This document shows positions 1 to 64,000 of a DNA stretch of 64,000 bases, in pieces. Every line of letters starts with the position of its first letter. Positions within the stretch are counted from its first letter, which is position 1. The position numbers were made by a program, and so were the translations under genes. This DNA is from Ectobius pallidus (Eukaryota; Arthropoda; Insecta; Blattodea; Ectobiidae), in contig CAXKWD010000009.1 in assembly GCA_964059195.1 (NCBI GenBank), positions 90,059,432 through 90,123,431 of the forward strand, read 5' to 3'. The notes beneath the pieces are model-generated. The model made no database searches. It was not told the DNA's origin and saw only the letters and a program-made list of their open reading frames with translations.

Positions 1-84
1 CCTTAATAACGGCCTAACTGAAAGACCTGAAATTTTTTTATTTGGATTAACTACCTTCCGGGAATTTTGGAAGCATGATGATGA

Positions 85-844
85 CTTTCTCTTACGTTTA
101 CTACCGCTTTGTGCGTAGAAAATGCATTTTATCTGTATTTTCGTGGAAATGGTTTTAACGATTTTGTTAAATTTTTTTGAACAAACTGAGTTATTAAGAT
201 CTTAAACTAGTAGGCTGCGCATTTAAAAACATTTTAGTATAAATTCTTTGAAGGGCTGTTAGAAGCTATCAATGTTTTCAACGATATTTTGGACTTGCGA
301 ATAATACGAATCTGAATTAGGCTTACAGAACTGAAAGCACACTCCCACAATGTGGACTACACTGTGTTCCAATATAATGGATAGAGAAGCCCTTTTTTGA
401 AACAGGCTTCTATGTAGCCTATATATATATATAGGCTTCTATGTAGCCTATATATATATATATAGGCTTCTATGTAGCCTATTAATATATATAACTGAAA
501 GCACACTCCCACAATGTGGACTACACTGTGTTCCAATATAAAGGATAGAGAAGCCCTTTTTTGAAACAGGCTCCTATATATTGTGGGAGTGTGCTTTCAG
601 TTCTGTAAGCCTCATTCAGATTCGTAGGCCTATTATTCGCTAGGCATCGTTGAAAACATTGGTAGCTTCTAACAGTCCATCAGAGAATTTATTAAAAAAA
701 TGTTTTAAATACGCCTACTAGTTTAAGATCTTAATAACTCAGTATGTCCAAATTTTTTTTAAACAAAATCGTTCAAACGTTTACGCGAAAATACAGATAA
801 ATTGAATTTTCTACACATAAAGCGGTAGTAAAAGTAAGAGAAAG
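85..844. mobile_element. Foldback (long inverted repeat) element
   Basis: The left arm (85-350) and right arm (581-844) are imperfect reverse complements over about 265 bp, from ctttctctta inward to ctgaaagcacactcccacaa. Between them a 78 bp block is directly duplicated (331-408 and 495-572), and a 28-31 bp unit (aggcttctatgtagcct plus an AT run) occurs three times from 405, 433 and 464. No transposase ORF is present and I could not define a target duplication. The right arm carries TAGGCCTA where the left arm has TA. A diverged single-arm relative lies at 63040-63300. The class of mobile element is inferred from structure only. Confidence 0.75.
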
Positions 845-846
845 CG

Positions 847-852
<6 letters not shown>

Positions 853-915
<63 letters not shown>
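853..915. repeat. (GA)n microsatellite
   Basis: About 62 bp of uninterrupted GA dinucleotides, preceded by a short GT run, directly at the outer end of the right foldback arm. The Ser/Leu-repeat ORF it generates on the minus strand is spurious. Confidence 0.97.
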
Positions 916-917
<2 letters not shown>

Positions 918-1984
918 CAGGATCTTTGGTTACACCAGTAGGCCGTAAAATATTGATGTGGATGTGTTTATTGTGTATGTCATGGCTGGTGTTCATTTTA
1001 ATTGATGTTGAATATTAATGATTATTTGATATTAGGTAAAATAGCGGGAGATGAGTGAAGGACTATAATCCTATAACCTTTCCGGGTGTGAAAACTGGTT
1101 TATGCAAAATTTCAGTTTGACAGTTTTTGTGTCAAATCGGAACAGAGATGAACCATTACATTTTTATATAAGTACTGTTTATTATTTAAGACAAACTACA
1201 GTATCCCATAGGATACATTATGAACTTATGGGTTAAATAATCATATTTATTAGGCCTAAACATTCTTTGCAAATGCCGATTGACTGTGTCTACTCTTTGG
1301 CCTAATGTGCTTTTATACACATTTTCCGGCCAAAGCTATTTCTTTAATGTTTCATGTTTTCCAAAATTGTTTTATATGAATGGACTATGCTGTTGTTTTT
1401 CGTAATAAAAAGTTCAAGCTATTTCCATTGTCCATGGTTCGATTCGAGAATTCATGCTGGGTGTTCTACATGTGTGGTCCATGCTGAGTGTATTCGCCTA
1501 CTGTTTACGCTGCCAAAGAATTCCCGCTAATTCAGCGAACAAATTTCGAATTCGCACATATTAAAACTAGTAGCCTCACCATTAGCCATTACTAGCATTT
1601 ATTACATACACAATCATAAAAGAGCGAACCGCGCTGAAACACTTTTATTGTGTAACATATATTAACTCACAGAGATAGTGGCTATGCACTTTGTGTTGAT
1701 CAGTCAAGGTTTAGTAACGTCGTTTGACACACCTTGTTAGAGAATTAGATTCTAGTTATACGGATGGCATTTCTGCAGGCTTTGATCTTCAGGTCTAATG
1801 TATTGTAGTCACCCGCACTTGAAACTGGCCGCAGTTGTCTCATATTTAAATCCAGATTGCTATTTGGTTGATCCGATAGTAATTTATGACTAGGACCCGG
1901 ATTCTTAGGGTTTAAACTATTTTATTCCTTGCTTTCTAACTGTGATATTGTAACATAATTATCCGTTTCATTGTCATGCCAATC
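916..1984. other. Unannotated AT-rich stretch
   Basis: No ORF with recognisable similarity, no terminal inverted repeats and no tandem structure was seen. One TAGGCCTA-type octamer lies near 1251. Confidence 0.6.
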
Positions 1985-1992
1985 ACATAGAC

Positions 1993-2499
1993 CAGCGTTT
2001 CTCAACCTATGGTCCACAGATGGTGCAGATGGTCCACAGACATAGTTTTAAAATATCATAAAGCAAGTGGAAAGTAAAGAAATAATTCCGGGGTGCGCGG
2101 GCAAAGAGAGTTAAGTCCACTTTCTTGTTACTGAGAATTAGAGTGACTTAATACACTATACCAGCCCAACATAGCTTTGGAGATGGATAAACCCATGAGG
2201 GACACATCCATAACTACCGTACAATTTTGAATATGACTTACTGGACTTAACACAAATGTAGAGAACATTTTTATCTATAACTCTATGGACATATCTCATT
2301 TTTTTTAGAAGGTGGCCTTAACTCTCTTTGCCCGCGCACCCCGGAATTTTTTTCACATATTTCGTTACAATGACCTATAATTAATACCCCGAATATTAAG
2401 AATATAGGCCTTTTTTTTAATGGGATGTAAAATTAGGGGTCCGTAAAATTTTTTAGACATTTTAGAGGTCCTCAGGTTCAAAAAGGTTGAGAAACGCTG
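1993..2499. mobile_element. hAT-type MITE with perfect 8 bp target duplication
   Basis: The element starts cagcgtttctcaacct and ends with the exact reverse complement, aggttgagaaacgctg. It is flanked on both sides by acatagac (1985-1992 and 2500-2507), an 8 bp duplication typical of the hAT superfamily. The CAGNGTTTCTCAA terminus is a common hAT MITE end. It is 507 bp long and non-coding. About half of its interior is a second, nested inverted-repeat element (2088-2344). Confidence 0.93.
2088..2344. mobile_element. Inverted-repeat element nested inside the hAT MITE
   Basis: About 30 bp of near-perfect terminal inverted repeat (ccggggtgcgcgggcaaaga inward) bounds a 257 bp segment flanked on both sides by aatt (2084-2087, 2345-2348). 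The aatt could be a 4 bp target duplication or simply part of the palindromic terminus. The GC-rich termini contrast with the AT-rich interior. No coding capacity; family not recognised. Confidence 0.7.
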
Positions 2500-2507
2500 A
2501 CATAGAC

Positions 2508-3602
2508 CAATCTTATAAAACCTAAAAATGGCTAAATAAGACGTTAAAAACTAAAAATGGCTAAAACTGCTTTTCAATTAAAATACGTTAAAATAACAAC
2601 AATATTATAATACGAGTAATTAATCTAATTATTAGGTTCTGCTAAAATTACTTTTTAAATATGTGCGTACATTTTGCATTTTGCTCATAGTTACCAGTAG
2701 ACCTACATTATTTTGTGAGATGCAATAAAACATTGCGTTTTGTAATTTTGTCATTTTGTACTCCAGTGCCCTGATAAAGGAAATCGTTAAGTGAACCGAA
2801 ATCCCCGGTTTCTTCAGGAGCAAATTAAAGGCATTCTTAGGAAGCTTACACTTGGTTTGTTCACAATGTTTACTCCAGCAAGACGCCGAAAGTGAAGTAT
2901 TCTAAACGTTGGTCGATTAGGCTAATTATTGAGAAACGTTCTCATTGAGTTTGTGGTGAGTTGGACATGACAGGGACAATAAAATTGTAAAACTAAGAAA
3001 ACGCATTCCTTTAGTTTTGTGGTTCACAGCAAGATAAATTTAAGTAAAAATAAAATTAATAAATAAATTATTTTTTAATGTGTTTATTGTAGGCCTACTT
3101 ACTAAAGTGAAACTAAAAAAATCGACTGAAAATGGTAAAAAACTATTATAAAATTATTTTAATATGTTAAAAAATTAAAACATTAGCCTATTCATATAAT
3201 ACTAAAAATCCCGGCCCTGCTTATGACATAATAGTAGTGGCTTTAAGGCCCCTACATATCCTGTATGGCGACAGACAAATCGATTTTTCTTCCATTTCTT
3301 TCTATTTGACGAAATTGGTCACTAACGGCCTCCGGCAATTAAAACCGTGCATAATTATTATAAGTGAAATAAAGTTGGAAAATTGAGTTTGATGCAATAA
3401 CAACGCAGATTTAAGAGCTACACGTTTCCTGAAAATTACGAAGGGCCTTTATTTATTTTATTGAAATCATACAAACAAAATTATTTCGCATTACAAAATC
3501 AAATACCCCAGATGAGGAAAGCTCATGTTTAGGGGTGCAATTACCATATAGTCTACAATAAATAAAATAGAAACATGGAAATTTACAAGTAGGCCTACAC
3601 AC
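2508..3602. other. Unannotated AT-rich stretch
   Basis: Contains short repeated 'cctaaaaatggctaaa' phrases at 2518-2575 like those near hAT ends elsewhere in the window, but without resolvable termini. No credible coding region. Confidence 0.5.
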
Positions 3603-3939
3603 GAAATGCTAAGTTGATAGCCAATTTCCGCCGTAAAACACTAGTTATGAGCTTTTAGCACCTGAGTCTGAAAGGATTGCTGTTTGAATAAAAAACATTC
3701 ACATTATATTAGGAATGTGTTTATATTTATGTAATTAATGTAATATACACTTATCATAAATATAAACATAAATTAAACATAAATTACATTTATGTGTAAT
3801 TAATGTAATATAAGCCTAGGCCTATTATAAATATAAACGTATTCCTAACGTGAATGTTTTTTTTTCAAGCAGCAATCCTTTCAGACACAGTTCATAACTA
3901 GTACTTTAAGGTGGAAAATAACTACCAACTAAGCATTTC
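3603..3939. mobile_element. Foldback element, about 337 bp
   Basis: The arms 3603-3735 and about 3828-3939 are imperfect reverse complements, from gaaatgctaagttg inward through 'ctgaaaggattgctg' and 'aacattcac'. The loop contains direct copies of gtaattaatgtaatata. No target duplication was found and there is no coding capacity. MITE status is inferred from the hairpin structure. Confidence 0.7.
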
Positions 3940-8796: not shown

Positions 8797-10350
8797 CATG
8801 TGCCCGCGGCTTCGCCCGCGATAATTATTTCAAAAATTAAAAATTAAGAGCATAATAGTTAAATCATTATATTTATTAACACCTAAATCACGTGGACTAC
8901 ATACCACGATTAGATAGCGTCGCCTGGTAAAAGCGACCTCAGATTCGAGTTCCTTGGCCCAGAAAACCCCTGTACAGTGAGTTTCGTCCAAATCGAACAA
9001 TGTTTGACCATATTTAGGCCTATATTGATTATCCCTCTTCCGAGTAGGTTGAAAATTTCATATGTCTTCGGGCCTTGATATTCTAAACAAATGAATCGTC
9101 CAGGATGGACTTACAAAATCAAGCGATCGCCCGCGATAATTATTTCAAGAATTAAAAATTAAGAGCATAATAGTTAAATCATTATTTTATTATCACCTAA
9201 ATCACGTGAATTACATACCACGATTAGATATCGTTGCCTGGTAAAAGCTATCTCAGATTCGAGTTCCTTGGCCCAGAAAATCCCTGTATAGTGAGTTTCG
9301 TCCAAATCGAACGATGTTTAACCATATTTAGGTCTATGTTGATTATCCCTCTTCCGTGTAGGTTGAAAATTTCATATGTCTACGGGCCTTGACATTCTAA
9401 ACAAATGAATCGACCAGCGTGGGCTTACAACATTCAAGCGATCGCGATGCTTTTATTTCCACGGTATGACAAAAATAGCCAAAGCCAACTGCAATTGATT
9501 TGACATTGAAATGTATTACTGAAATCTGATGCTTCGACAGCGCTAAAATCACGTTTTCTGCCAGTTTTTTACTCATAACTCGCGAACGAAAGCTAAAATT
9601 AAAAATTCGGCTTCGAGGTGCATTCGCCCACCTTTCAGTCCATCTATCTTTAAATTTTCAGATCTTTGCGTTCAGTAGATTTCGATGGGCATCGTGGACA
9701 GACAGACAAACAGCATGTGCCCGCATGTGCCCGCGGCTTCCCCCGCGATAATTATTTCAAATTATAATTATTAACACCTAAATCACGTGGAGTGCATTCC
9801 ACGATTAGGTAGCGTCCCCTGGTAAAAGCGACCTCAGATTCGAGTTCCTTGGCCCAGAAAACCCCTGTATAGTGAGTTTCGTTCAAATCGAACAATGTTT
9901 GACCATATTTAGGGTTGATTATCCTTCTTCCGTGTAGGTTGAAAATGTCATATGTCTGTGGGCCTTGACACTCTAAACAAATGAATCGTCTAGGATGGAC
10001 TTACAAAATCAAGCGATCGCGTTGCTTTTATTTTCAAGGTAGGCTATGAGGTATGTTGACAAAAATAGCCAAAGCCATCTGTAAGTTATTTGATATTGAA
10101 ATTTATTACTGAAAACTGATACTTCTAAAACGCAAAAAAATGCACGTTTTCTGCCAGTTTTTCACTCATAACTCACGATCGGAGGCGAAAATTAAAATTC
10201 CGGCTTCGAGGTGCACATTCCGACCCTTTAGTCCGCCTACTTATAAAATTTCAGATCTCTGCGTTGAGTAGATTTCGCTGGGCATCGCGGACAGACTGAC
10301 AGACGGAAGACAGACAGACGGAGGACAGACACTTCCTTTTATTAATATAG
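8797..10350. repeat. Partly triplicated dispersed repeat ('cccgcggcttcgcccgcg' family)
   Basis: Three head-to-tail copies. Copy 1 (8797-9130) carries only the 5' half. Copy 2 (9128-9709) and copy 3 (about 9713-10350) run through to a (cagacagacgga)-type tail, and copy 3 ends attaatatag. The start tgcccgcggcttcgcccgcg and the bracketing by AT-rich sequence are typical of dispersed arthropod repeats, probably a LINE 3' end, although I cannot assign a clade. The copy 1/2 junction lies in gatcgcccgcg, where both sequences share a short 'cg' overlap. At the start of copy 3 'catgtgcccg' is itself duplicated. Confidence 0.8.
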
Positions 10351-10482: not shown

Positions 10483-11040
10483 ATGATTTATTGAACAAAA
10501 CTTTATTATTAAAACTAATGATAATTAGGCATTTTAAGTCTTTCCTTTTCATTTTGTTATTAGTGTTGCCTCTAAGGATTTTAAAACTATATAAAGAATA
10601 GTAACTTTTACATGAAGAGAGCTCATATTTCCTGTACTACGCTTATTGTTCAAAATAAAAAATTGAAATATTTCTATGATGTATTAAACAAAACAACTTT
10701 ATTGCTAACCTAATGATAATTGGAGATTTTAACTCTTTCTTTCTAATTTTGATAATAATGTTTCACTAAGGATGTTAAAACATAAATATTAATCTCTTTT
10801 ACATGAAGAACAGCCCATAGCCTATAGCCTATATCCTGTACTATTGTCTAAACATAAAAAATGAAATAATTTAATGATGTATTAAATAAAACAACTTTAT
10901 TGCTAAACTAATGATAACTCTTTCTTTCTAATTTGATATTAGGATTTCCACAAGGATTTTAAAACTTAATATATATATATATTACATAAAGAAGAGTCCA
11001 TATATCCTTTACTATTGTCTAAACACCATAAAACCCTATT
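10483..11040. repeat. Tandem repeat, three units of about 195 bp
   Basis: Units begin at 10483, 10676 and 10874 with atgat followed by a tta-rich lead and acaactttattgct. Each continues with ctaatgataa, tctttctttcta, aaggattttaaaac, tacatgaagaa and cctgtactattgtc. The third is shorter. The units have diverged, with an AT run inserted in unit 3, so the amplification is not recent. Non-coding. Confidence 0.85.
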
Positions 11041-12917
11041 GTTATTTCTCGCAGTCTTCTATACATTCGTGTTCTTCAGTTTAATAATGGAACTAGAATT
11101 TTCTTTGACCCGTTCGTTAGAGGCATTTCTTATAAAATTCTTAGGCCTATGTCTAACGATCTCTTCCGGTAAATTCTTGTTATTATGATTTCATCACCCT
11201 ACCGTAAATACTCTCAAAACAAGACCACAGAAATGAAATTGGCTATAAATCAAAACAGGTAATCGGCCCGCTTCGTAGTTCGTAGAATTCATCTTGCTGC
11301 CGTACGTGATATGATTTTTCACACCGGAATTTCTAAATGATGTCATGCTTTCCTTATCGACAATCTGATACCATAAAGGAAAAATAGCCAAGCAGCGTAA
11401 TCATCATATTACTTTCGATTTAATATTTTTCCTAAAATATTTTTCCAGTGTATTTAGCATTTGAAAAGAGCAGAAAAAAGAACGTGAAATGGAAAAAGTT
11501 CTGACAAAATTAAAACGTTAAAGATTCAACTGTACCAGCAGAATCTTTAGCATGTAGGCCTATAGCTTTGAAGTAAAGCTTAAGGACACTTCTTTTGCGT
11601 TTAATCGAAGTAGGCCTACTCTGCCCTACCCACATGAGTACTACAGGAAAAACAACTTTCAGTTAACATTGTGTATAATATCGTGCAGTTCATGAATTTT
11701 ATTCCACATCAGGCCCAAAATTCAATATTCATAACTTAATCCTAGCCCATCCTGAGAAAAATTTGCCCATCCTCATCTTGAATTCTGGCTATTCTGGCCT
11801 GGTTGTCCATCCTCTTCGTTGGTGAAATTTCACTTTTTATTAAAAACGGAGCTATTAAAATAATTCCTGTTAAGGAGAAATTACTTAGCGAGAATAAATT
11901 TTCTAATTTCTAATGCAAAACTAGGGCATCTCGTGAGATATTTCGAAGACGATTTAGTTACACTTATTTTCCTGTAGAGGGCCGAGTGACAGGTGATAGG
12001 TCCATTGATTCGACAAATCTTTACGGGAAACTAGTGTGAAGGGATCGGAAAATTTCGTCCAGTTTTGTTTTGAGTTCTTGAACATGCCGTAAATTTACAA
12101 TGGTTTATAACCCAGGATTTTTATGCACTAAACATATATCGATCTCGGCAGGGTTTGAAAGGCGAACCTCAATCCAGAGGCGGGTACGCTACCTCCACAC
12201 CAAGGTTGACTTTAATTATATGAACATAGAAATAACAATCGTCATATTGTTTGTAAGAACTACATTATGCAGAAACAGGCTTTTAAATTTATTTCAGTAT
12301 CTAGTTATGAATGCATAATGCAGATCAGAGCTTGAGTGATTTGTTAATTCTTTCCGATCTCATTTTAGTGATAGGTGAGTTTTGGTAGCCCAATAATATT
12401 TTAGCGTATATAAATTATTTGGTTTTGTAGGTTGGTTATATTGATTGACATGTATAAGTTTAATTAGAAAAAAGAACGGAGTGATAATTGCTCAACGAAA
12501 GCAGGAATGGTATTTATTGTTGGAACAGAGCACTATATTTGTCTGATATAAAATAAATATTGCATGTTATTGGTCAAATTCAAAAGTATTTGTAGATACA
12601 TTCTAAAAGTATTTGTAAGTAGATACATGCTCTATATAGGATATGTGATGCGTACCATTCTACGTACGATTCTAAAAGCACTGAATAGTTTTCATCCAAC
12701 AGTAGAATCATTAGGCCTAACTGAATTGACTTTTTAAAATATTGGAAATCACTCAATTTATTTGAGGCTTGTACAGACACACGATAATAAAATTCATATT
12801 ATCTAAAGAGGTCCCTGATTAAGAAATAAGCAAGGCTTGTGTTAGAACGGCATTGCTTGCAAATTAAAAATCTTGCCAAAGCGAAATTTCATATTCGAAT
12901 AATAGGCAAATCACATA
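11041..12917. other. Unannotated AT-rich stretch
   Basis: No credible gene. A tRNA-like patch at about 12130-12205 was considered (see rejected list). Four TAGGCCTA octamers lie at about 11143, 11555, 11611 and 12712. Confidence 0.55.
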
Positions 12918-13207: not shown

Positions 13208-13659
13208 TACTTCTCCTAATGTTTCTACCAAGTATAAAGCAGTATTTTCTTGATTTTCTGCAGATTTGCTCAACGACTCTTTTGTAACTTATATAATTGT
13301 GCTTAGCCTATATGGAGACCTACAACTATAATTTGAAACATTTCATCCTAAGAAGTACCTGAAGGATAGTTAAAATAGGATATAACACTCAGAAAAGAAG
13401 TCCTACTTCTGATGAACTTTACACTGCGTAAAAGGGAGGTAGTGAAATGCACTCTCCTTCTAGGAGGCCGCTTTTGCTATGCTGGAATTTGAAGTGAACA
13501 AGTAGCGAGATCAAAACTCAGGACAGAAATAGTCATGTGAGTAGGCCTAACTCTCATGAGAACTTTACTCAAGGAACTTAAAAACGGGTAACCTATGTCT
13601 ATCGATAAAATAATTAGGAATTTGTTATTGTTATAACTATCAGAAGGAAGAAACAAGAA

Positions 13660-28390: not shown

Positions 28391-28392
28391 CT

Positions 28393-44648: not shown

Positions 44649-45754
44649 CATTAAAGTCAGATTTTCATTATAGCATTGATGTGGTATCGATCAATATCGA
44701 ACAGGGAAAATATTCAAGTCTTCAGAGCAGCAAATGAAACTGCGTAATGAAAAACCTGTATTTAAAATAAAATCAATTCTGTTTGTGTTAATTTTAACAT
44801 AATAGACAAAGTTCATTTCGTGTTTTAAAGTCCATTGGTTTCATATTAAAACTACCAAGAGACGTTTCGAATTGACTTCATACCATCAGCAAAAGATGAA
44901 AACGACGAGAACTTACTAACAGCTGATTGCCGGGGTCAGCCTTCTCCTTTTGATTAATGAATATAAAATCTCAAAATTTTAACTTTTAATTATGGTCGAA
45001 CAAAAATAGTCGTATGCAACTTGTATATAGCCGAATTGTAACCCAAAACACTCGTATGTAAGTTATGAGCCTTAAACATTCTCTTTTTTTAACAAATGTA
45101 ATTAGGCCTATAGACTCGTTCTTTCACGGTTAAAAATTAAATCAGGCAAATAATTATTACTGACTGTAGGTGAAGCTTTCTTGTCTCCTTGTCTTCTTGT
45201 CTCTGCATTTCTGCCTGCCTGTCTTCTAGGGCGTCAATCACATACACAGCACTGCATACAAACCAAAAGTTTGTACTACAAATTTATAGAATAATTTCAT
45301 TTGTATGGCAATAAATGGTGGGAGAGGTTATATGAATCATATAAAATAAAAATGTGTTTATAAATAACTAGCTAAATTTTAATTTAAAAAAATCTTATTT
45401 ATTGATTCTCATAATTTACCAAAATTTGAAGCCTACCATCCCTCGTGAAGATCGATATCCCCTCTCGGAGGAAAGTGGCTGTATTGAATACTGACCAACA
45501 TGATTTACACGATCGTCTTTGATTCTCGTGAGGGTTAAAATATTGTCATTGTTTTGTATTCAGAGTATCGAGCCATAGCGCATTATCATGGATAAAAAAA
45601 AAGAGTTAACTCGAATTGTTATCCGTTGAGTAAGCTAAGCAAAATCCCTCTTGGCTAGAGGGCACTCCGAGAGACTGCACTCTATAGTCTACTCAACTGC
45701 TGCATTTCTCTCGCTTATGCGTCATTCTTCCAGGCCTATGCAAATAAGCAGTGG
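44649..45754. other. Unannotated stretch
   Basis: A C/T-rich patch at 45175-45230 (ttgtctccttgtcttcttgt) is microsatellite-like. No gene recognised. Confidence 0.5.
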
Positions 45755-47030: not shown

Positions 47031-47712
47031 AAATTAACTTATTCTAAACAGCTCCCTAAATTATCCATAAAATAGAAAATTCAAACCTGTCGTAGGCCTA
47101 TGTGAATTTTTGTCTGTAACGAAATAGGACGACGTACAATATAATCATTAGCGTGATTATTATTGAGGTTATCTTCTTTATTCATAATATTTTATAGTGT
47201 ACAATAAAGACAAACAGCAATTATTGGATTCTTGTGGCTACACGTTTCCTTCCTAGGACAGCCTTGTTAAGACCTACAGGATGCGTGTGGTGCTCGCTTT
47301 TGGTGCACTCTTGCACTGTCTATCACACTCTCTCGTTATGTTACCTAGTTATGACAGCTAGGGAACATCCCACCTCCCCCTCCCCTTAATTCCGTGTCTT
47401 GGTTGTGTATAATGTAGGCGTCAAAAACCTTTTCTTCATCTTCTAAAACAAATAAAAATAAATTCAGCATGGAAAGAACAGCCTGCCCTCTTCTCCAATT
47501 AACATTGTTATCTACACTGCCTTCAGGATAGTCTATAGAAATTACAAAATCGATAGATTTGGAATTATATTATGTGTAGGTCTACATCGTATGACATACA
47601 TTAAAACTTTTTCCTTCCCGTAAATACCTAGGGCCTATTTAGATTTAGAATTAAGATGGGACGGATTAGGAAAGACACTTATGGACAGAAGCCTACATTG
47701 AAGAATTTTATA
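47031..47712. other. Unannotated stretch
   Basis: No gene or repeat recognised. Confidence 0.5.
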
Positions 47713-47714
47713 TA

Positions 47715-48425
47715 CAGTCAACCCTCGATATAATGCCCCTGTTTACAGTGCCACCATTGTAATGCGCCAATAAATGCGAATGAACTGATCTTCTCCCATA
47801 TAAAATACATAAGAAACCTCGTGACTGTGGCAATTCATTTAGTGTCAGTGAATATAGGACGAAAATTTTTACAAAATTAAGCTTGCAGTGATTTTTTTTT
47901 CAGTTGCAGAATTCTTTTAAAACTGGCGTGAATGTTAGGAAGATAATTTAAGAAACAAACTGAACTGTATTTCCAAGAAGTAAGTGTTCATGCAATGGAA
48001 TGAGGAAGCTATGTTAAGAAGTCTGACAGAAGCGTGCGTGAGGATGGAGCAGGTAGAAACAGCCCTTCGTACAATGAGACATTCCAAACTTTCATTCCCT
48101 TTAGTCCAGTGTCCATTCAGCTGTTAAACACTATAGCCTACTACAGTTACTGAGCTACAGTTAGTCACTTAGGCCTACATGATTTTCAATTCCTTTGTGT
48201 ATTGTAGCACTGGACATGGGCTATAGGCTACTGTAATAAATTGAAATAAATTTATTTTGTGCTAAAATTCTCTATTTGCCTTTCATTTAATTTTTATTTC
48301 ATAATACAATACAGTAAATTAATGCAGCACTGTATTATGCCATTTTTATTTTAGAAATTAAATTTTGTTTTAGTGCCACCCTCGCTTTGTGCCACTAAAT
48401 GTGGCATTATATCGAGGGTTGACTG
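47715..48425. mobile_element. pogo/Tigger-like MITE with TA duplication
   Basis: Perfect terminal inverted repeats of at least 23 bp (cagtcaaccctcgatataat, then gcc, and the reverse complement at the right end) are flanked by TA (47713-47714 and 48426-48427). The CAGTCAACCCTCG... terminus is typical of pogo/Tigger members of the Tc1/mariner superfamily. Near both ends phrases 'agtgccacca' and 'gtgccaccctcgctttgtgccac' hint at subterminal repeats. It is 711 bp with no transposase frame, so non-autonomous. Confidence 0.93.
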
Positions 48426-50392: not shown

Positions 50393-50394
50393 TA

Positions 50395-50560
50395 GGTCTG
50401 TTCGCAAAGCTAAATCATGTAGGCTACTGTCATGTACCGCGACGCATGCGCACATTTCGAATATGCTGATATATGACATTGTGCGCATACTTTGCGCAGG
50501 GAGACCTACAATGTGCGCATGCGTCGTGGTCTGTGACAGGGATTACTTTTCGAACAAACC
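50395..50560. mobile_element. Short MITE with GG...CC ends and TA duplication
   Basis: Begins ggtctgttcg and ends cgaacaaacc; the inverted repeat continues with gaps to gacgcatgcgcacatt and aatgtgcgcatgcgtc. It is flanked by TA at 50393-50394 and 50561-50562, consistent with the Tc1/mariner superfamily. It is 166 bp with no ORF. The left arm has an extra 'tgtaggcta' not found in the right arm. Excision of such an element with a 2-base stagger would leave TAGGCCTA, the window's most over-represented octamer. Confidence 0.8.
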
Positions 50561-50562
50561 TA

Positions 50563-51484
50563 ATATAAGCCGCAGATGATCAAGGGGAAATAAGGAAATG
50601 ATGTGTAATTATATGTATGGTGAAACATTTGAAATCTCGTATAGTAGGCTACTATTAACAGTATTAATAAGATGATATTATGTAGCGCGACTATCGCCGA
50701 TAGTTAGACGATCGATATATTATAATATGGGCTATCGATCGTCTCCCCATATTCTATCTCGCTTAAAATGACACAAATAGCTATAGCCTATATATTATTT
50801 ATTTTAGTCGTTTTAATTATTCATTACATGTTAAATTTTGTGAGTTTGATAATGATACTAAATATAACTTAAGGTCCGGATTCTCTCAAGATAAATTAAT
50901 TATCAAATACCTATTCCTTATTTTGTCTCTTTTTATCGCCCTAAGTTCAATTGTTTTTGTACGTGAATTCGTATTGAAATAGCTTTATAGCTTCTTTTAC
51001 CTAAACGATTAATCGGACATAACCTCAACCTGAAGTTAAATATCTTTCCATTCCCATTCATCGATAATATGTAAAGAAGAGGGACTTCCTTCATTTAATT
51101 TCGTTAATAAAATTGCATTTTCAATAAATATTTACTCAATTATATGGCTATAGCTTCTATTAATAGTAGCAACAGCCAGGAAATTCATCTAAAAGTAATA
51201 CAGCTGATTACCGTTACGAAAAGTGTTGTTAATAACCGCTCGCAGCATGACCATCGCTTTAATAAATTGATTTTTCCCGATGGCTAAAGCCGATATGTTT
51301 AATTCATTTTAGTGGTTTTAATTACACCTTTTTATTACATGCTTAATTCTGTAAGCCTTCGCTATAACTCGAGACCCGGATTCTCTCAAGATTCATTCAC
51401 GAGCAACTTCTTTGCAATAATATAGGCCTACTACATGCTCTGTAAATCTACAGACATGGGCATGCCGTAGTTATGCATACATAA
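50563..51484. other. Unannotated stretch
   Basis: A small imperfect palindrome lies at 50700-50742 (gacgatcgatat ... ctatcgatcgtc). No gene recognised. Confidence 0.5.
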
Positions 51485-51572: not shown

Positions 51573-52204
51573 ATGCAACGAATTACAGACTTTGGAGAGC
51601 GAAAATACATAATATATAGCACTGACCGCGTTTTGAATTCAATACTTCTGGCTGAGAATATTCTTCTCAAATTGGTTGGAAGTATTATATTCAACGATAA
51701 GAAATACGTGTCTATCGGGAAATATTTTCAATCAACATCTTACGTTGTCACAGATTTGTTGGGCAATTGGATATAGGCTATACTTCCCTACCCATTCGAT
51801 TATCTTATCCCATTTTTAAAAGACTGTACTTCACGAATTTCGAACGATTGTCTTAAACTGTCAATATGCACTGATTAAAAAATTGTGATACCTGAAATGG
51901 CGTAGGCCTACATTTACTCCTTGAAGGACTCTCTCTCCCAGCACGCTGCCTGCGAAATCGCTCGTGGGGTATAGCCCTCGTTTAATTCGATTTCCTATAT
52001 GGCGAAAAACAAGTAAGTTGGCCTGGAAGAAATCTGATCTTTCGACTAGGCCCATGTTTTTTTTTTTCTCCCCGCTGCCGATTGATGATTTGTATAGGCA
52101 AACTTATATAATGAACCCCTGGCCGTAATGTTTCTATATTTCAATATTCTTAATCTAAAGTCATTATGCCCATTTTAAAATACGTTTGTAATGCCATATC
52201 TTGA
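51573..52204. other. Unannotated stretch
   Basis: No gene recognised; an ORF at 51570-51776 has no domain. Confidence 0.5.
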
Positions 52205-52502
52205 CCGCCGGCGTGGTCTTGTGGTTAGCGTCGCTGACTACAGTTCCTTCGGCCCGGGTTCGACTTCATCGGATTTTTTCTGAGGTAGGGAGGTCTGGAA
52301 CGGGGTGCACTCAGCCTCGTGATTCAAATTGAGAAGCTACTTGATATAGAAGTAGCGGCTCCGGTCATGAAAACCACCATTAACGGCCGTTGGTGCCGGC
52401 ATGCTGACCACATGCCCCCAACCCTGCCATCTGCTTATGGTAGATGACGCAGCGGTCGGGTGGTAGGCCTAGTCCCTTCAGGGATGTAGCGCCATGGAGT
52501 TT
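52205..52502 (+). mobile_element. SINE family A, near-complete copy (tRNA-derived)
   Basis: The head cgccggcgtggtcttgtggt then tagcgtcgctgactac (box A region) and gcccgggttcgacttcat (box B) precedes the body ctgaggtagggaggtctgg, gaagtagcggctccggtcat, ccattaacggccgttggtg, ccacatgcccccaacc and cagggatgtagcgccatgg. Related pieces lie at 15580-15715 (antisense 3' part) and 28393-28490. It carries TAGGCCTA at 52462 where the 15.6 kb copy lacks the extra bases. Confidence 0.88.
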
Positions 52503-53215: not shown

Positions 53216-53216
53216 G

Positions 53217-53469
53217 GAGTGTAGAGTGGGATCCTCGATCCCCTGATTTAAATCCAATGGATTTTGCGATATGGGGGTACCTGAAGGCAAAAGTGTACGA
53301 GGTGAAGATCAGGGATGAAAAACATCTTCGAGAGCGAATTGTATCAGAGTGCCGTGCTGTTACGTCAAACTTGGTGTCCAATGTTCTACGGAACATGGGC
53401 GACCGTTTACAGATGTGTTTTGATTTGAACGGTTCTCATATTGAAAACATAGGCCTAATCACAGAATAG
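53217..53469 (+). pseudogene. Tc1/mariner-superfamily transposase, C-terminal fragment
   Basis: Reads DPRSPDLNPMDFAIWGYLKA with the third catalytic acidic-residue region (SPDLNPMDFAIWG), followed by KHLRERIVSECRAV, NVLRNMGDRLQMCFDLNG and SHIEN, then a stop at 53467-53469. The motif run 'PRSPDLxPxDFxxWGxLKxxVY...LRxRI...CxxxxGxHIE' belongs to a transposase group frequent in insects and distinct from the mariner copies at 12.9, 36.5 and 63.5 kb. The frame is open for about 80 codons. The N-terminal part is absent and no terminal repeats were found. Confidence 0.85.
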
Positions 53470-54928: not shown

Positions 54929-55060
54929 CTAATGTACACAAATACACATATACATTCAAATACGTGTATAGGCCTATGTGCGCCCATATACAAAATCTTA
55001 TATACAACACACAAACAACAAAAACACACATCTATACACACTTAACATGCACAAATATAC

Positions 55061-55091: not shown

Positions 55092-58000
55092 CATATCGAT
55101 GTTAATGTAAAAGTTTCTCCATTGCCTTATTTGATCTACGCTATGATATTTTCTTATTGACTGATACTGTATGGCTACACGGCAAATTATATGCTATGGG
55201 ATCTGTTCATCGACTGATTGAAAATTCGTTACATGACTCCAGGCAGGTGTGTTTTTACAGCTGTAATTTCAATTATAATGTAATATTTCTGAGCGATATC
55301 TTCATTTCCAAAGACAACGGCCCCTAACTTTCATTATGATCAGAAGAAAATTATTTTTTGTTCCGGTTATCTTCCTTTTGTAGGTTATGTTAACAGCTGT
55401 ATGGTAATGATTCCACGAGAGCGTGCTGGATTTTGGTATTAAAGTCTATGGAGTATCGTAGTGTTGCAAGCGATTTTAATGCAGAAGTCATATAATACAT
55501 TCTTAAAAACTGATGAAATACATTTTTCTACTCTTAAGCATGGGCAATGGAATTTTCTTGCTTCACATTCCGACTTGGAGTAAGCACCAAGTTTCTTAGC
55601 CCTACGCAAAACTGTGTTTTAGAGCTTAGTATGGTCTCTTAGCATGAGAAATTTGAAGAAAATCGTTTGAAAATTTTGAAGAAAAACGCAAAAAAAAAAT
55701 CTTGGAAAATAATAAAAGTCAGAGAACGTAGATTCATCTTATTTTGACATATCTCAAAGTATATTTTTAATTTATTACTTTTATATTGAGATTGAATGTT
55801 TTTTTAATGTTTTTAAGTCTTTCTAACTATAATTGACTAGGCTTAATAAGCCGATTATCTATTCTTAACATTTTAATATATATTCAACTCTATTAAACAA
55901 TACCTATTTATGACAAAATTCTGGGTTTCTATCTCTTTATTTGAGGGTATAAGGTGGACCTGTTTACAAACCTATAAGTTTTTTTTTTCACGTCACATCA
56001 TGTGGAGTAGTGGCCATATCACTTCCAAACTTATGTGGTTAGGCCTAAGCAGTGCTAGCTCTGGAGAGAACTAGAATGGGGAAATCAACCTTCATTTGTA
56101 ACAATTCTTGTAAGGCCTACAAGCAGGCCCACTGCGGTTTGGATTCCACGTTAATTTGTAGATCCTTGTAACTGTAAAACAACTTCAGTGGTCGTTATCA
56201 CAATATAATGGGGTCTGATCCACCCTCTAGCGGTCCCCATGATCGTTGATCGCCTCATGGCGAAATAAACACGCCCTAGGCCTATACATAGGAATAAGAG
56301 AGAAGAGAAGTTAGGAATAAGAGAGAACCACAACAGGTTTCAATATTCCTTTGTGCATCTTCTTTCTTCCTCAGGAGTTTGATTCAGGTAGGGATATGAA
56401 CTATTTCAGGATAGGAACAGGTCTGTGGATAATGTTACTGGGTCTCTGCTGAGTACAAAGGCCCATCGCTAGAGTTCTGACTAGTAGGCCTAATGGTCAG
56501 GGTCCGGATTTTGATGATCTAAAAATACTTAAAAGATTAACTATAAAACGACTGCAAAAATTAAAAAAGGAATAAAAAATTTATATGAAAAAACTAGTTT
56601 ATTAATCTGATTTGTGTCTATTCTACTCGTACATTTCTGGTATACTAACCCCTATACTGGGCCATGGGTCAGATATGGCACATAGGCCTACCAGTTTTTT
56701 TATCCATATACGAGTACTTATCAATTTCTATGGGTGGTCAGATATGTTAGACAGCCTAGAATAACTATGCAAGCAGAATTTGTCATCTGTCTTTAGAGTG
56801 AGGAACTAATTGTCTTGAAACTTTCTCTTGTGTTGTCAGCCATTTTCCTCAATTCTGTCTACATCAATAGTTGTATATTTTACAGTGAAATTTGTATTTG
56901 TGCTCTTATATTATTCCTGTGAAAACATTGATATATTTGAACATTTATAAAGATATAAGTTTGAAGGTTTATCCACCAGTGTGATTATAATCTCCCAGAA
57001 TCTAGTTGGGTCAGATATGGCCCAACATGCGTTTATGGTAGGCCTAAGCAATAGTCTATAGTAGCCTATGTATAACATAATTCTTGCTACTGAATGTATA
57101 GTAATCCGATTTCTTTGCGTTCAGTTTGTTTGCTACAACGAATGTGAAATACTTTTATTTTCTTCATCTGCAGTAAGAGCTATGGAGCTATAGCGAACGA
57201 AAAAGTTCTGGTATGCCAGATGGCATTATTTACGAGTAAGTTACATAAAATAATTCGCAAAAATGACGTGATTGTTTCTGAGACGAAACCTGTAGCTTGT
57301 CAGAAGTGCAATGCAATAATGTGCTTCAACAAAGAAGGAAATGTTTCTTCAAGTTTCGCGACGTCAAGAACAATGAGCGCAATTTCTGGCGATTGGGCCT
57401 CTATAATGTATGAAAGTTTAAATATTGTATACACTAAATTTTTCAGTCTTCCATATGTATCTTAATTTGTAATCCCCATTTAGTACATCTTCCCTCCTGA
57501 GGCTGATATCATAAAAAGATAACTGTTACTGCATACTGTGCCAGATAAGACAAACCCTGAATCCCTAAAAGAAAATCTGTCACATAAGGTTTGGATTTTC
57601 TTTACTATTCTTCCTGAACTTAGGATAATATTTAACAAGTTAGATTTTCCAAAAAATAAAAAAATAATGCATTAAGGGCTAAATTATATACCTAAAATTG
57701 CCACTGTTCCCTCCTAGATAGAATAAATCTGGTAGCTTAAGTATTACTATATGGACACTCTGTGTACGAGGTATAGGGTCTCCAAGAGGAAGTTTCAGTA
57801 TGGAAGACGATTATTTCCTTTAGAGGTCAGAGGAACAAGTGGTAAGCCGATCGCCTCGACGATTAGGTAGAGGAAACTAAGTATTGCTTGAACGTGAATC
57901 TACGACATTTATACGTCCTTAAAAATCCATCTACCTCTCCTAGGTTTGATTCCGCGACTTTCGGATCCAAAGGGGGGTCACGTTACCTCTACACCAGCCG

Positions 58001-58380: not shown

Positions 58381-58825
58381 ATTATAAAAATGGTAATTTT
58401 TAGGGTTTTTTTGGCCATTTTCTCATTTTTAGGTTATTTTTAGAATATGTCATTATTTGAACTTTTTATAGTTATTTTAGGTCTTTTTTTCCCACATTTC
58501 GAATTATTAGGTAATTTTGGTTAATATAAAGTAATTAATTTCTTATTTTGTGTTGTTTCTCGCATGCATTTAGTTAGGCCTACATAGAATATTATCGGGA
58601 CTCTATTGTTATAATTTTAATTTAGATACAGAAAGGTATCGTAGATACGGCTTAACTAATTGTGTAGAATTGTAATTGTAGTGGACAAAGACAAATTCAG
58701 CATTAAAATTCCAAGTCTGCATTTATCGTGGTACAATATAAGAACTATTTATTCACACAATAATCTATTAAGATTATAAAATAAAAATTCTTATTTAAAA
58801 AACAAAACTTCATGAAGTTTTACAG

Positions 58826-59100: not shown

Positions 59101-60028
59101 TTCCAGCGAAAAAACAGTTTTCTGAGAAAAAAAACCGGGACATATTCTGTATGGGCACAGCAATTAATTTAGGAGAATTAAACCTAATAATTCAATCATC
59201 TGACTTGTCCCCTGATTGAGTTTCATACTAGTAACTTATAGTGACCAGATCCATCTTGTCCCTTTACCTAAACTGCTGAGCTTAGCCGAGCGAGATTTGT
59301 TGCTTACATTGAATCAATATAAGGTGCCCCGGAAGCAACAGTCTCAGGTTTGAGGACCCGTCTTTCCTTCTAAATTTATAGAAATCACTCTCTCATGCAA
59401 CTCATCGGAATACGGAGCCCCTCCTAATAATTGTGTTCCACCTGGAACCACCGAGTGAGAGGGGTATACCACAAATCCTAACAGGATGGTGGCGTTGCTT
59501 CATAATGATTTTCCTTTCATGTAGGCCTATACTGTGGAAGGAATATAACTGTGCAGATTTTAACAGCTTGTTCCTTCGATAGAGACACACAACAAATTGA
59601 AGTATTTTTGTCTCAAGTCGGTACTTTTCTCAGAACAAAAAAGGTGTCCCTAAACTTTAATGATCTTGCATTATTTGATAAGTGTTGTTCGTACTGTTCT
59701 TTTCTTGTACTTCATCAGGAAACAATAAAGGGTATATTTTACGTTTGCCGTTTTTCAATGAAGTTGGTAGTTTTCGTGCAAATTAAATACAAATATTACT
59801 ATTTTGACTTCATACTCTATGAAGTCTGGCAACGTCAAGGCACGTACCTTCCCTTAAATAATATGTTTGTTTTATAAGAGTGACAGACAGGTTATTGCTT
59901 CCGCATAAGCGATCTTGCAGTGCGCTGTTGCAATTATCCGGATACTAATAATAATATTTTAGGCTTGTCTGTAGCCATGGACTAAGTTTCATATTTATTT
60001 TAACGTTACCTACTGAACCCTTGTCCGC
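59101..60028. other. Unannotated stretch
   Basis: The 108-codon ORF at 59551-59877 (plus) is the longest here but shows no recognisable domain. Its Tyr/Phe/Lys-rich C-terminal half reflects AT-rich DNA; I do not call it a gene. Confidence 0.45.
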
Positions 60029-60450: not shown

Positions 60451-61158
60451 TAGACTTCGGATTTTAGGTAAAAACCTTTTTTAATCCTTAAGTGATAGGC
60501 TATATGGACGAAAACTTGTATAGCCTATGCATGTTTCTTAAGTGACTATCCCTAAAACTGATACTTTTATAAGACCTAAAACAGCCTATTTTTACATTAG
60601 AGCCTAATATTGCCTTTTTACTTGTTTTTCGCCTAAAGTTCAAAATAAGTTATTTTTTGTTATAAATTCTAGCATTTATTTTCAGTTCGTACTAAATTTT
60701 TAGCTCGGAATGTGCAGTACATGACACATTTATGACGTGGTTAAAAAGTAAGGAATGTTTCGTCTTCAGTAGAAAAATTCCTTGGAATTCCTAAGAAAAA
60801 AAAAGTAGTTCTCTGAATCACGGAGGGATACAAGGGGTTGAATATGCTAGCGTGCATAGCTTCTGGGCGCAGGGATTAAGTTTTCACTGTTATAGTAGTA
60901 ATACAGGCCCTAGTAATAGGTCTATATAATTCTGTGTACCATAGGCCTATAAATCTGTGTTTTTATCTTGATTATTGATTAATGTTGACTTCAGTAAATA
61001 TAATATTCTGCATTGCAATTGGGATATTTCTGAAAATTGGCAACTTAACGATTTTATAAGAGACTATTTTACGATTTTTAGAACCTATTTTCCAATTTTT
61101 AGAGCCTATTTTAGGTGCCTAAAACAACATTTTTAGCGACCTAAAAGTCCGAAGTCTA
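60451..61158. mobile_element. hAT-type MITE with 8 bp duplication
   Basis: Starts tagacttcggattttagg and ends cctaaaagtccgaagtcta, 18-19 bp inverted repeats with one mismatch. Flanks are cttatgac (60443-60450) and cttataac (61159-61166), an 8 bp duplication with one difference. The interior near both ends repeats phrases such as 'gacctaaaacagcctatttt' and 'agagcctattttaggtgcct'. It is 708 bp and non-coding. Confidence 0.9.
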
Positions 61159-61166: not shown

Positions 61167-62018
61167 TAACCTATGCCTCTCCAAGCCTTTCATTATGAAT
61201 GAATGTGTGGTTTGTGAAATTACAAGACATGATTTATCAATGCAATGTGGTGCGTTCAAGGTTTATATTCATATAATAGGCCTAGAACTATTTTAAAATG
61301 GTCAAAATGTCCATCTACTTTACTGTTGAAAGTAATTAAATCTTAGAATAACAACCTGTCTGTTTCTTAATATCCAACCAGAATATGTTTCGGGTAAAAT
61401 AGGGTTTGGTGAAAATACAGTAAATAAAAAAAAATAATATATAGTATAACTATTTTTAAAAATCGAAAAAAACAAAATAATGAATGGAATAAAAGAAAGA
61501 AAGAAAAAACTTTTTACTACAAATATATGGGTAGCATGTATACACCAATTTGGAGTTTATTAAGATGACCGGAAATTGTAATTCAATGTTGCAATATTTT
61601 ACTGCTAAGATAGATGGGAATTCATTGGCAAACTAAATAATGACAGCGGATTACGTGGGTTTTAAACACACATATCAATGCACGAAGCGTGTGGGGCCTG
61701 GGGACAAATAAATTATTCATTTATTCATGATAATGAGTTAGGATTCCATTCAAACCAAATATGTAATTTCTTCAACACGGATTTGCTTACTTGGCCTTCA
61801 TGGAGGTAAGGTTTTTAAAATTCAGGAATAGTCTTCAACTATTTGATATGTATACTCGAGGCGTAAAGGATGTGGCGCATTAAATGTTGATTAACTATCA
61901 CTGAAAATACTAATTACTCCGAGCTCTAGTATGATAAATTTAGTAGTTCCCTGGGACATGTATGTGTTGATAGGCTTCTCTAAGAGTAGGAAAGAGATCA
62001 AACTCTTAAGAGCATTTG
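61167..62018. other. Unannotated AT-rich stretch
   Basis: No gene or repeat recognised. Confidence 0.5.
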
Positions 62019-62077: not shown

Positions 62078-62091
62078 CAATAATAATAATA
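62019..62091. repeat. (AAT)n microsatellite
   Basis: About 24 AAT trinucleotides with two AAC variants; gives spurious poly-Asn and poly-Tyr ORFs. Confidence 0.97.
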
Positions 62092-62177
62092 GCCTAATAA
62101 CAATAAAAATAATTATTATAATAAATAATTTTCGACATCAACTTGTCATTGGCTGTAGAGGGACATCAGATAAGTCA

Positions 62178-62426: not shown

Positions 62427-62670
62427 AGGTAAGACATAGAGACATTCTCTGGAGGCAGATCAACTTTATGCAGGACCTCCTCCTAGGAGGACAAATAGAA
62501 CAGGGGACAGGAAAATGCGGACTATATTGGAAGTAAATTATGAAAGGCCATTCGTAAACTCGAAGTCCAAAAATTCATTCATATTGATCGGTGATGGGAT
62601 TTGAAATCACAACTTCACGCATGTGTGTCCGGACTTTCGGTCTCGGCCATATCACTCGCTAGTAGTAGGC
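62427..62670. other. Short unannotated stretch
   Basis: Nothing recognised between the MITE and the next microsatellite. Confidence 0.5.
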
Positions 62671-62671
62671 C

Positions 62672-62673
62672 GA

Positions 62674-62721
<48 letters not shown>
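62672..62721. repeat. (AAT)n microsatellite
   Basis: About 16 AAT trinucleotides. Confidence 0.97.
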
Positions 62722-62722
<1 letters not shown>

Positions 62723-63039
62723 AATTTTGAGTATTATGACTTTTAAGATATCAAAACAATTTGAAAGTCCTGTTGATGAGTAATAAACATAAAATAAATT
62801 TCTTCTATTTAATTTTATTTTTTATTTCGTAAGCCCAAGTCAGCTGCATTGATCTTTTTTTGGACTAAAATTAATATGAGTAGGCCTATTCCAATTTAAA
62901 ATATCAATACAAATAATATAGCCTGGTTATATTTTAAGCTTTATCCATTGACCGAAATGATTGGTAATTCATGAAATAAAAAAAAAAGTCTTATGTGAAA
63001 CAACTTGTCCTTCGTATTGCCTTGTATGTTATAGACATA

Positions 63040-63300
63040 GAGTAATCGGCGGCACTGTGGGAGTGCGTATTCAGTTGTCTAAGCTTCATTCAGAACCTAT
63101 GCAAGAGTAGACAAATCCGAGACTGTTGACGAGATGGATAGTTTATAATTAGCCTTCAGAGAATTTGTACAAAATATGTTTAAAATAAGTTATATTGTTT
63201 AGCTCCTAATAAATTTATTCTGTGTTAGAATTTTAAACAAAATCGTTAAAAGTATATCATGTAACGAGCCTATAATGGCATTTATTAAGATACGAGTTTT
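63040..63300. repeat. Diverged single arm of the foldback family at 85-844
   Basis: Shares, in the same order and spacing as 581-800, gtgggagtgcg/gtgggagtgtg, attcagtt, cttcattcagaa, tcagagaattt, ttttaaacaaaatcgtt. Considerably diverged, and no opposite arm is present. This may be a solo arm or an older element that lost one side. Confidence 0.6.
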
Positions 63301-63345
63301 TTTTATTTTATTTTATTTTATTTTTTTTATATTTTTTTTTATGGA
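63299..63345. repeat. T-rich low-complexity tract
   Basis: Runs of tttta and T8 to T9 following the foldback-family arm. Confidence 0.9.
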
Positions 63346-63504
63346 ATGAGCACATTTTCGAGTTTTTAGAATAAGTTGTAATTCATATTATCATACTCGG
63401 CCGACGAGCGTTTTAATCTCAAAACAACGTACATTAAAACACACAAAATGAAGTCAACTTAGTATAATAGTAAACTTAACACGGATAGAATTACTTTAAT
63501 TATA

Positions 63505-64000
63505 CGGGGGTGAGTCCGAAAATAAGTTTCCTCGGCGATTGTGTACAGACGTATAGATGAAAGACAAAAATATAATCAGACATTAAAGATAAGACGAACC
63601 AATATTTTTCCATATAATTACTACATACGAGACATTTGTCATACCACTTTATAAGCTTCAAAAAGTCCTCCAGGAAAAAATCAGGGCTCTGCGCTCCCAA
63701 TCAAGAGTTGCAATATGGTTTTGCGTTGCCGTCGCCGAGTGTGGTCTCACATTGTCATCCAACAGCAGAACACCAGATTGGAGAAGACCAGGCAGCTTTT
63801 TCCGAATCGCCTCCTTCAATTTCGACAGGGTGTGACAGTACCGCATAGCAGTGATGGTTCCATCCTCCAAAAAGTCCAGCAACAAAACCCCTTAGACGTC
63901 CCAGAACACTGTGAGGAGCACTTTACGTGCAGAGGGCGTTGCTTTGAACTTCTTTCGGACAGGTGATGACGGATGCTTCCACTCCATAGTTGCGGCTTTC
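63505..64000 (-). pseudogene. mariner element, truncated by the window edge, with internal deletion
   Basis: The left terminus gggggtgagtccgaaaataa is preceded by TA (63503-63504), as for mariner. On the minus strand from the right edge the frames give MEWKHPSSPVRKKFKATPSA, KVLLTVFWDV (first catalytic Asp), then LLLDFLEDGTITAMRYCHTL, KLKEAIRKKL and GVLLLDDNVRPHSATAT (second catalytic Asp context). The D34D segment containing the third Asp (HPPYSPDLAPSD in relatives) is missing: after HIATLDWE the sequence jumps to the far C-terminus, FFLEDFLKLIKWYDKCL, in another frame. A frameshift and a stop also occur near 63890. The copy is clearly inactive. It continues beyond the window. Confidence 0.9.

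Follow-up and report, generated by a model that had tools for sequence, protein, structure and literature searches.

A palindromic octamer, TAGGCCTA, recurs throughout a stretch of 64,000 nucleotides from the Ectobius pallidus genome (assembly GCA_964059195.1, contig CAXKWD010000009.1, positions 90,059,432 to 90,123,431; hereafter, the window), and repeat copies in this genome differ by exactly GGCCTA, or by GGCTA/GCCTA, at a TA dinucleotide. The TA is duplicated, the inserted letters are restricted, and the phenomenon is genome-wide. Both the over-representation of TAGGCCTA and its insertion at TA, as proposed in an earlier note on this DNA, are confirmed. We see an even chance that TAGGCCTA and the shorter TAGGCTA/TAGCCTA are excision footprints, or scars, of a TA-inserting cut-and-paste transposon with ends GGC...GCC and 3-nt 3' overhangs.

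The window has a GC content of about 35% and holds 46 copies of TAGGCCTA and 56 of AGGCCT, close to the earlier hand counts of about 45 and 55. An order-2 Markov model predicts 1.07 and 13.7, respectively, and 60 runs of a motif-masked order-3 simulation gave a mean of 1.0 TAGGCCTA per window and a maximum of 4. The octamer is the fifth commonest 8-mer of the window, after poly-A and AAT runs, and its commonest palindromic one (46, with TATATATA at 45). This first place among palindromes does not extend to 20 preset 10-kb stretches of the same genome, where its 58 copies rank 18th among all 8-mers and third among palindromes, after ATATATAT and TATATATA. Across 24 such stretches, there are 69 copies (range 0-8 per stretch) and 86 TAGGCTA/TAGCCTA; the density of TAGGCCTA per 10 kb averages 2.9 there, compared with 7.2 in the window. 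Extrapolation from 69 copies in 240 kb to the whole assembly (2,124,618,226 bases in 410 contigs) implies a total of about 0.6 million; the scatter between stretches puts the standard error near 18%. Genome-wide, TATAGGCCTATA sites number 13,036, compared with 78 for the reversed control word. One interval of the window, 13550-24601, has no TAGGCCTA over 11 kb, which is long given the local density.

TAGGCCTA is not carried by one repeat family, because the flanks of its sites in the window are mutually unrelated and have no longer word in common. Words of the form TAGG-Nk-CCTA are in clear excess at k = 0 alone (46 compared with 1.1 per spacing), and among 592 occurrences of GGCC, 110 are flanked on both sides by TA and at most seven by any other repeated dinucleotide. 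TAGGCC as the end of a longer family of miniature inverted-repeat transposable elements (MITEs) was considered and rejected, the next base being T in 100 of 117 cases (window, both strands). Two families, the short interspersed nuclear element SINE A and a repeat at 9.0 kb, do hold the word ancestrally. TAGGCTA/TAGCCTA is also abundant in the window (37 observed, 8.9 simulated), and no excess of TAGCTA or TAGGTA was seen there in the order-3 simulation. A search of viral contigs for three TAGGCCTA at a spacing of no more than 30 returned 11 stretches, mostly local arrays or tight clusters and none dense along its whole length; the same spacing search returned 27 stretches from prokaryote contigs. 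The satellite word had no match in viral contigs.

Insertion can be read directly from repeat copies, which we compared across 326 kb of the genome's own DNA, comprising the window and a set of L-numbered stretches. A clean insertion was defined as 4-8 bp with flanks at least 10/12 identical on each side, and the catalogue lists rows, not independent events. Satellite self-pairs at 37.0-38.7 kb, simple-sequence contexts, gapped flanks or flanks below 10/12, sites within a few bp of an earlier one, and alignments above an E of 1e-6 were dropped. Stretch L063 overlaps L040, and rows L063:1655 and L063:530 and one TAGGTCTATA row duplicate L040 sites. Among the 58 clean insertions, TA is duplicated in 10/17 at 5 bp and 12/18 at 6 bp, compared with 1/11 at 4 bp, 1/6 at 7 bp, and 2/6 at 8 bp (4/23 for these three lengths together). 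TAGGCCTA accounts for seven of the 6-bp rows at six loci (L040:676; L040:2734, again in the overlapping L063; L052:9278; L060:5455; L061:902; and L061:8725), and three further gains lie in the window at 625, 38359, and 30924. TAGGCTA accounts for five 5-bp rows at four loci (L052:9124, L058:8133/8135, L060:6631, and window 50420); the gain at L060:6631 is common to window 10040, the two being a single ancestral event. At least two copies without the insert stand against one with it at L060:5453, L058:8133, L052:9124, L061:8725, window 38359, and window 30924. The claimed gain at TA, with TA duplicated, is a genome-wide phenomenon, and several loci give it a polarity. Within the window alone, a second copy spans 13 of the 91 motif and variant sites, with clean TA counterparts at 625, 38359, the tandem pair 10818/10825, and the microsatellite site 62090, and the remainder ambiguous or shared.

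The four examples from which the gain was first argued fared differently. In the foldback at 625, one arm shows an exact 6-bp gain relative to the other, without polarity because there are two copies only. The satellite insert at 38359 is missing from four copies, i.e., two pairs of a higher-order repeat, and the sister copy at 37716 reads TTGGCCTA. For the long interspersed nuclear element (LINE) at 30924, the copies in L061 and L051 do lack the insert, but both read CA at the place of TA, with the alignment gap falling in two parts. The insert lies within the LINE reading frame and adds Gly-Leu in frame to what we take to be the undisturbed LINE motif. The SINE A example at 52464 shows no gain, as TAGGCC is also present in L043, L051, and L053, and the copy at 15.6 kb has instead lost 7 bp.

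TAGGCTA/TAGCCTA is about as frequent as TAGGCCTA. It is gained directly as 5 bp at TA (L058:8133, L052:9124, L060:6631, and window 50420), and the window has 28 more copies than expected, above the excess of the twelve single-substitution classes of TAGGCCTA summed (about 23), a one-base deletion being expected far more rarely than substitutions. On both grounds, the shorter word is not a decay product. The sites also have a bias in their surroundings. In 208 flanks of TAGGCCTA, the outer base is C in 74 (35.4 expected), G in 15 (33.2 expected), T in 71, and A in 48, with a chi-square of 58.9, compared with 1.2 and 8.5 for the next two bases. For TAGGCTA, the outer-base chi-square is 19.7 and 33.9 on the two sides, C or T being enriched and G depleted, and falls to 10.4 and 8.7 one base further out; in both words, little of the bias extends past the first outer base. 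TACAGTA shows no outer-base bias. TAGGCCTA has no obvious dependence between its two sides, as judged without a formal test. The pattern is as expected for a target preference of roughly R-TA-Y and not for a longer inserted palindrome.

Single-substitution neighbours and intact TAGGCCTA words stand at about 23 to 45 in the window, a ratio that suggests, by rough arithmetic, a mean scar age near 6% substitutions per site. Copy pairs at about 88-90% identity (L040/L061, L058/window, and L060/window) share some of their scars and not others, and the insertion process is long-running and was active into the fairly recent past. Three gains in about 5.6 kb from three copy pairs, which diverge by about 11%, suggest that insertions may occur at around half a percent of the rate of substitutions, a rough figure that is biased upward because the pairs were chosen for holding scars.

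Counts of other TA words were made in a 252-kb sample of the genome without L044 (a tandem array), the satellite, L039-L042, and L063-L067. Among the sixteen TA-palindrome-TA octamers, TAGGCCTA (99, with 2.9 expected) and TACCGGTA (18, with 1.9 expected) clearly exceed the others, apart from TATATATA; this does not hold for TAGCGCTA or TACGCGTA, and TACATGTA is not enriched (6, with 8.3 expected). In a separate count, TATACCGGTATA occurs 1,298 times, compared with 339 for the reversed control. TACCGGTA has been gained at TA at L045:8539 and L058:335, and its outer base leans like that of TAGGCCTA (C 14 and G 3 of 40); it is a minor sister scar behaving like TAGGCCTA. Gains at TA were also found for TACCGTA (L061:2426) and TACTGTA (L044:4212). 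TACAGTA is present at 1.44 times expectation, and TAGGTTA/TAACCTA is at most weakly raised (47, with 35.7 expected).

If the words are excision footprints, the donor element would insert with duplication of TA and have the ends 5'-GGC...GCC-3', and its non-transferred strand would be cut 3 nt inside, as in Tc1-like elements, leaving each flank with a 3' overhang GGC. With full overlap, the outer bases would pair around a middle G:G mismatch, giving TAGGCTA or TAGCCTA; with an overlap by two, GC would pair with GC without mismatch, and gap filling would give TAGGCCTA. TACCGTA and TACCGGTA may derive from another, weaker type of donor with CCG ends. Resident CAG ends would be limited to TACAGTA/TACTGTA, because AG is not self-complementary. 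The raised TACAGTA and unraised TACATGTA fit that prediction, and the restriction of inserted letters to GGCC and GGC/GCC supports the overlap scheme. A 3-nt GGC overhang explains both products at once. The earlier form of this idea, a Tc1-type scar of two plus two nucleotides, was right in the gain at TA and the duplicated TA but naturally explains only the longer product.

A gain at TA sites with TA duplicated is the type of footprint left by Tc1/mariner elements. The gains measure 5 or 6 bp and duplicate TA, without the 8-bp duplication of hAT elements. PIF/Harbinger elements duplicate a 3-bp TWA, and no fixed third base adjoins TA in the 208 flanks; the target of piggyBac is TTAA, and T before TA is depleted at the scars. 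Another description of the data, which we hold tentatively, is the genome-wide and sequence-exact insertion of GGCC, GGC, or, more rarely, CCGG into R-TA-Y, with TA duplicated and no resident donor. Its agent would be a hyperactive element, now lost or very rare and outnumbered by its scars by orders of magnitude, or else a host enzyme that cuts at TA, combined with symmetric end addition.

Several observations weigh against excision footprints. No GGC- or CCG-ended TA element survived inspection in scans of 276 kb and 316 kb (overlapping sets), which covered terminal inverted repeats (TIRs) of 14-16 bp with up to 3 mismatches in elements lying whole within one stretch. CAG-ended TA elements are common, with eight TIR pairs in 316 kb (two being one duplicated locus), yet their scar TACAGTA shows only the 1.44-fold rise. 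The filled TA-element-TA state was found at no scar site among the paralogues compared; the earlier note had predicted such an allele, and none was seen in the approximately 0.3 Mb of 2.12 Gb covered. Among paralogues, 45 candidate large gaps were mostly tandem-repeat phase shifts, and by eye none had the form TA, GG...CC, TA. For CCG, the predicted 5-bp partner has a single supporting locus, since TACCGTA is not significantly enriched (18, with 15.1 expected), and it shows no outer-base bias. TAACTTA/TAAGTTA has an unexplained excess (105, with 58.5 expected, in diverse flanks); with outer letters complementary like those of GGC, CCG, and CAG, it may be a further scar type. In addition, several supporting copy pairs are of low overall identity (63-75%), and the overlap model was framed after the products were known. 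As no donor was found, it is rare, gone, or never existed, which leaves room for a donor-free process.

Individual candidates for the donor were rejected on their flanks or ends. The TAGGGACCGGATTYTTAGG family (L046 3508-4356, L050 8742-9510, and L061 8408-9577) was considered as an element with GG...CC ends between TA and TA, but its three flank pairs are 8-bp duplications (for L050 and L061 also by a second test), and it is therefore assigned to hAT; a fourth copy, L039 1668-2324, has no 8-bp match. The TAGGCGTAACCAGG family (window 27149-27412, L049, and L050), with the hAT-like MITE with ends CATAGGCGTAACCAGG at window 27147-27414 and in L049 and L050, and TAGGCTTGCCAGA (L049 1110-1695) likewise have 8-bp target duplications, some of them 7/8, by hand reading and, for L049, also by test. 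The MITE with TIR GGTYTGTTCGMAAAG, which has a second copy at L061 4978-5496, shows a TA-only duplication but ends in GGT and was rejected as a GGC donor; the weakly raised TAGGTTA/TAACCTA is the word that GGT ends would give at full overlap. Of a Tc1-type DDE transposase, the window shows no more than fragments, with weak matches to DDE_3 at 36598-36870 (E 0.0062, below the cut-off) and to Sleeping Beauty at 53188-53469 (E 0.057).

Other TA elements were observed alongside these. One at window 47713-48427, presumably Tigger-like, has the TIR CAGTCAACCCTCGATATAATGC identical at both ends, and a MITE at window 12916-13209 has the TIR CGAGGGCGAATCAAAAAGTAAG between TA and TA. Three copies of an element some 760 bp long, with identical TIR CAGTCGGTCAAATAAAAAACGTCG, occur in 200 kb (L043 2320-3081, L046 7147-7907, and L047 8035-8802). 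A 31-bp tandem unit with TAGGCTTCTATGTAGCCTA lies inside a TA microsatellite at window 404-493.

Among the alternatives, we consider it somewhat unlikely that the insertions arise by donor-free mutagenesis, in which TA-staggered breaks at R-TA-Y are joined after the same short addition of GG(C) or CC(G) to each end. Such a process would be consistent with the absence of any GGC/CCG-ended TA element in 316 kb despite the roughly 0.6 million TAGGCCTA implied genome-wide, and with scars in unrelated sequence, satellite, hAT element, and LINE alike. However, the products GGCC and GGC, their symmetry (GGCC and CCGG, not GCGC or CGCG), and the match to a 3-nt overhang are what would be expected of element ends, and an enzyme making symmetric GG or CC additions is not known to us. 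The form proposed earlier, in which a GG...CC-ended element leaves 2-nt overhangs that are filled and blunt-joined to TAGGCCTA, is improbable. A GG-ended TA MITE family does exist, that with TIR GGTYTGTTCGMAAAG, but this form by itself leaves unexplained why TAGGCTA/TAGCCTA is as common as TAGGCCTA without enrichment of TAGGTA or TAGCTA.

The direction of change could also be reversed, with TAGGCCTA ancestral and the TA copies having lost 6 bp by slippage between TA repeats. The repeated TA would allow such a loss, and SINE A and the repeat at 9015 hold the word ancestrally, but with several loci where at least two copies lack the word and one has it, and with the over-representation in unrelated flanks left unexplained, we regard this as very unlikely. 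Telomerase-type healing, in which two TA ends receive GG from TTAGG repeats (the insect-type telomere repeat) and are joined in head-to-head orientation, is scarcely credible: the head-to-head TTAGG/CCTAA does contain TAGGCCTA, but T is found before TA less often than expected (outer A in 48 of 208 flanks, with 70.0 expected), TTAGGTTAGG is absent from the window, and TACCGGTA is left unexplained. Equally hard to credit is the idea that point mutation and selection have raised the word as a binding site or a restriction-type signal, in the manner of HIP1: the palindrome is far above expectation, but the gains are 5- or 6-bp insertions at TA, occur also in satellite and transposon copies, and take two forms that differ in length.

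Should the scars be footprints, past excisions are preserved in them as in a fossil record, and excision rates, target choice, and end-joining outcomes become readable from a reference genome; with chance subtracted, the preset stretches hold about one per 1.8 kb (69 and 86 words in 240 kb). If no donor exists, they represent a new kind of insertion mutation. On either reading, they are a testable source of small insertions, such as the in-frame one in the LINE at 30.9 kb, and a case in which the range of products seems predictable from the chemistry of the overhangs. Table 1 gives the window coordinates.

Table 1. Scars, word matches, and a related element in the window (window coordinates; a dot marks no strand).
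Feature	Position	Strand	Remark
TAGGCCTA scar	625..632	.	foldback arm; other arm TA
TAGGCCTA	1251..1258	.	word match
TAGGCCTA	3090..3097	.	word match
TAGGCCTA	3590..3597	.	word match
TAGGCCTA	3817..3824	.	palindrome arm; counterpart ambiguous
TAGGCCTA	9015..9022	.	common to repeat copies; predates spread of the repeat at 9.0 kb
TAGGCCTA	11142..11149	.	word match
TAGGCCTA	11555..11562	.	word match
TAGGCCTA	11611..11618	.	word match
TAGGCCTA	12712..12719	.	word match
TAGGCCTA	13542..13549	.	word match
TAGGCCTA	24602..24609	.	word match
TAGGCCTA	27569..27576	.	word match
TAGGCCTA	28386..28393	.	word match
TAGGCCTA	29188..29195	.	word match
TAGGCCTA	29760..29767	.	word match
TAGGCCTA scar	30924..30931	.	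LINE frame, Gly-Leu added on - strand; absent from L061, L051
TAGGCCTA	32300..32307	.	word match
TAGGCCTA	33140..33147	.	word match
TAGGCCTA	33784..33791	.	word match
TAGGCCTA	34025..34032	.	word match
TAGGCCTA scar	38359..38366	.	satellite; absent from four other copies
TAGGCCTA	38595..38602	.	word match
TAGGCCTA	39845..39852	.	word match
TAGGCCTA	42501..42508	.	word match
TAGGCCTA	43064..43071	.	word match
TAGGCCTA	43212..43219	.	word match
TAGGCCTA	43269..43276	.	word match
TAGGCCTA	45103..45110	.	word match
TAGGCCTA	47093..47100	.	word match
TAGGCCTA	48170..48177	.	word match
TAGGCCTA	51423..51430	.	word match
TAGGCCTA	51903..51910	.	word match
TAGGCCTA	52464..52471	.	SINE A; TAGGCC ancestral to family, no local gain
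TAGGCCTA	53450..53457	.	within transposase-like reading frame
TAGGCCTA	54969..54976	.	word match
TAGGCCTA	56040..56047	.	word match
TAGGCCTA	56277..56284	.	word match
TAGGCCTA	56485..56492	.	word match
TAGGCCTA	56683..56690	.	word match
TAGGCCTA	57039..57046	.	word match
TAGGCCTA	58575..58582	.	word match
TAGGCCTA	59522..59529	.	word match
TAGGCCTA	60942..60949	.	word match
TAGGCCTA	61277..61284	.	word match
TAGGCCTA	62881..62888	.	word match
TAGGCTA scar	10040..10046	+	5-bp gain at TA vs L058 copy; common to L060:6631
TAGGCTA scar	50420..50426	+	5-bp gain at TA vs L045 copy
Tandem TAGCCTA TAGCCTA	10818..10831	-	12 bp above two sister repeat copies with plain TA
TAGCCTA in TAA microsatellite	62090..62096	-	triplet phase continuous without the 5 bp (alignment hand-read)
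TACCGGTA minor scar type	35948..35955	.	others at 20961, 33659, 41590; presence only at these four
MITE, TIR GGTYTGTTCGMAAAG between TA and TA	50393..50562	.	GG-ended TA family, ends GGT

The scars resemble Tc1-like footprints in that TA is duplicated, with what may be a few terminal element bases between, and the products can be explained by re-pairing of short 3' overhangs. Tc1 of C. elegans has 2-nt overhangs and leaves the footprint TACATGTA. Unlike Sleeping Beauty and Tc1 footprints, the letters here are GGC/GGCC (CCG/CCGG) and not CAG, hundreds of thousands of scars are implied, and the donor was not found. Elements of this genome with the ends TAGGGACCGG... and CATAGGCGTAAC..., which we take to be hAT from their ends and target-duplication length, likewise end TAGG...CCTA; unlike the scars, they are flanked by 8-bp target duplications, so that TA belongs to the element, and they were rejected as donors. 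The consensus footprints of Sleeping Beauty given in an excerpt of one source are TACAGTA and TACTGTA (PMC4378557). An insertion phenomenon involving TAGGCCTA is not reported in the titles and opening lines of abstracts among the matches listed; a Blattella germanica primer in an excerpt of another source contains agtaggcctatc (PMC7650587). The cyanobacterial HIP1 (GCGATCGC) is described, again in an excerpt, as a highly iterated palindrome (PMC4390886), and like it, TAGGCCTA is a single palindromic octamer far above expectation genome-wide. Unlike HIP1, its origin is visible here as an exact insertion at TA, accompanied by a shorter sister product.

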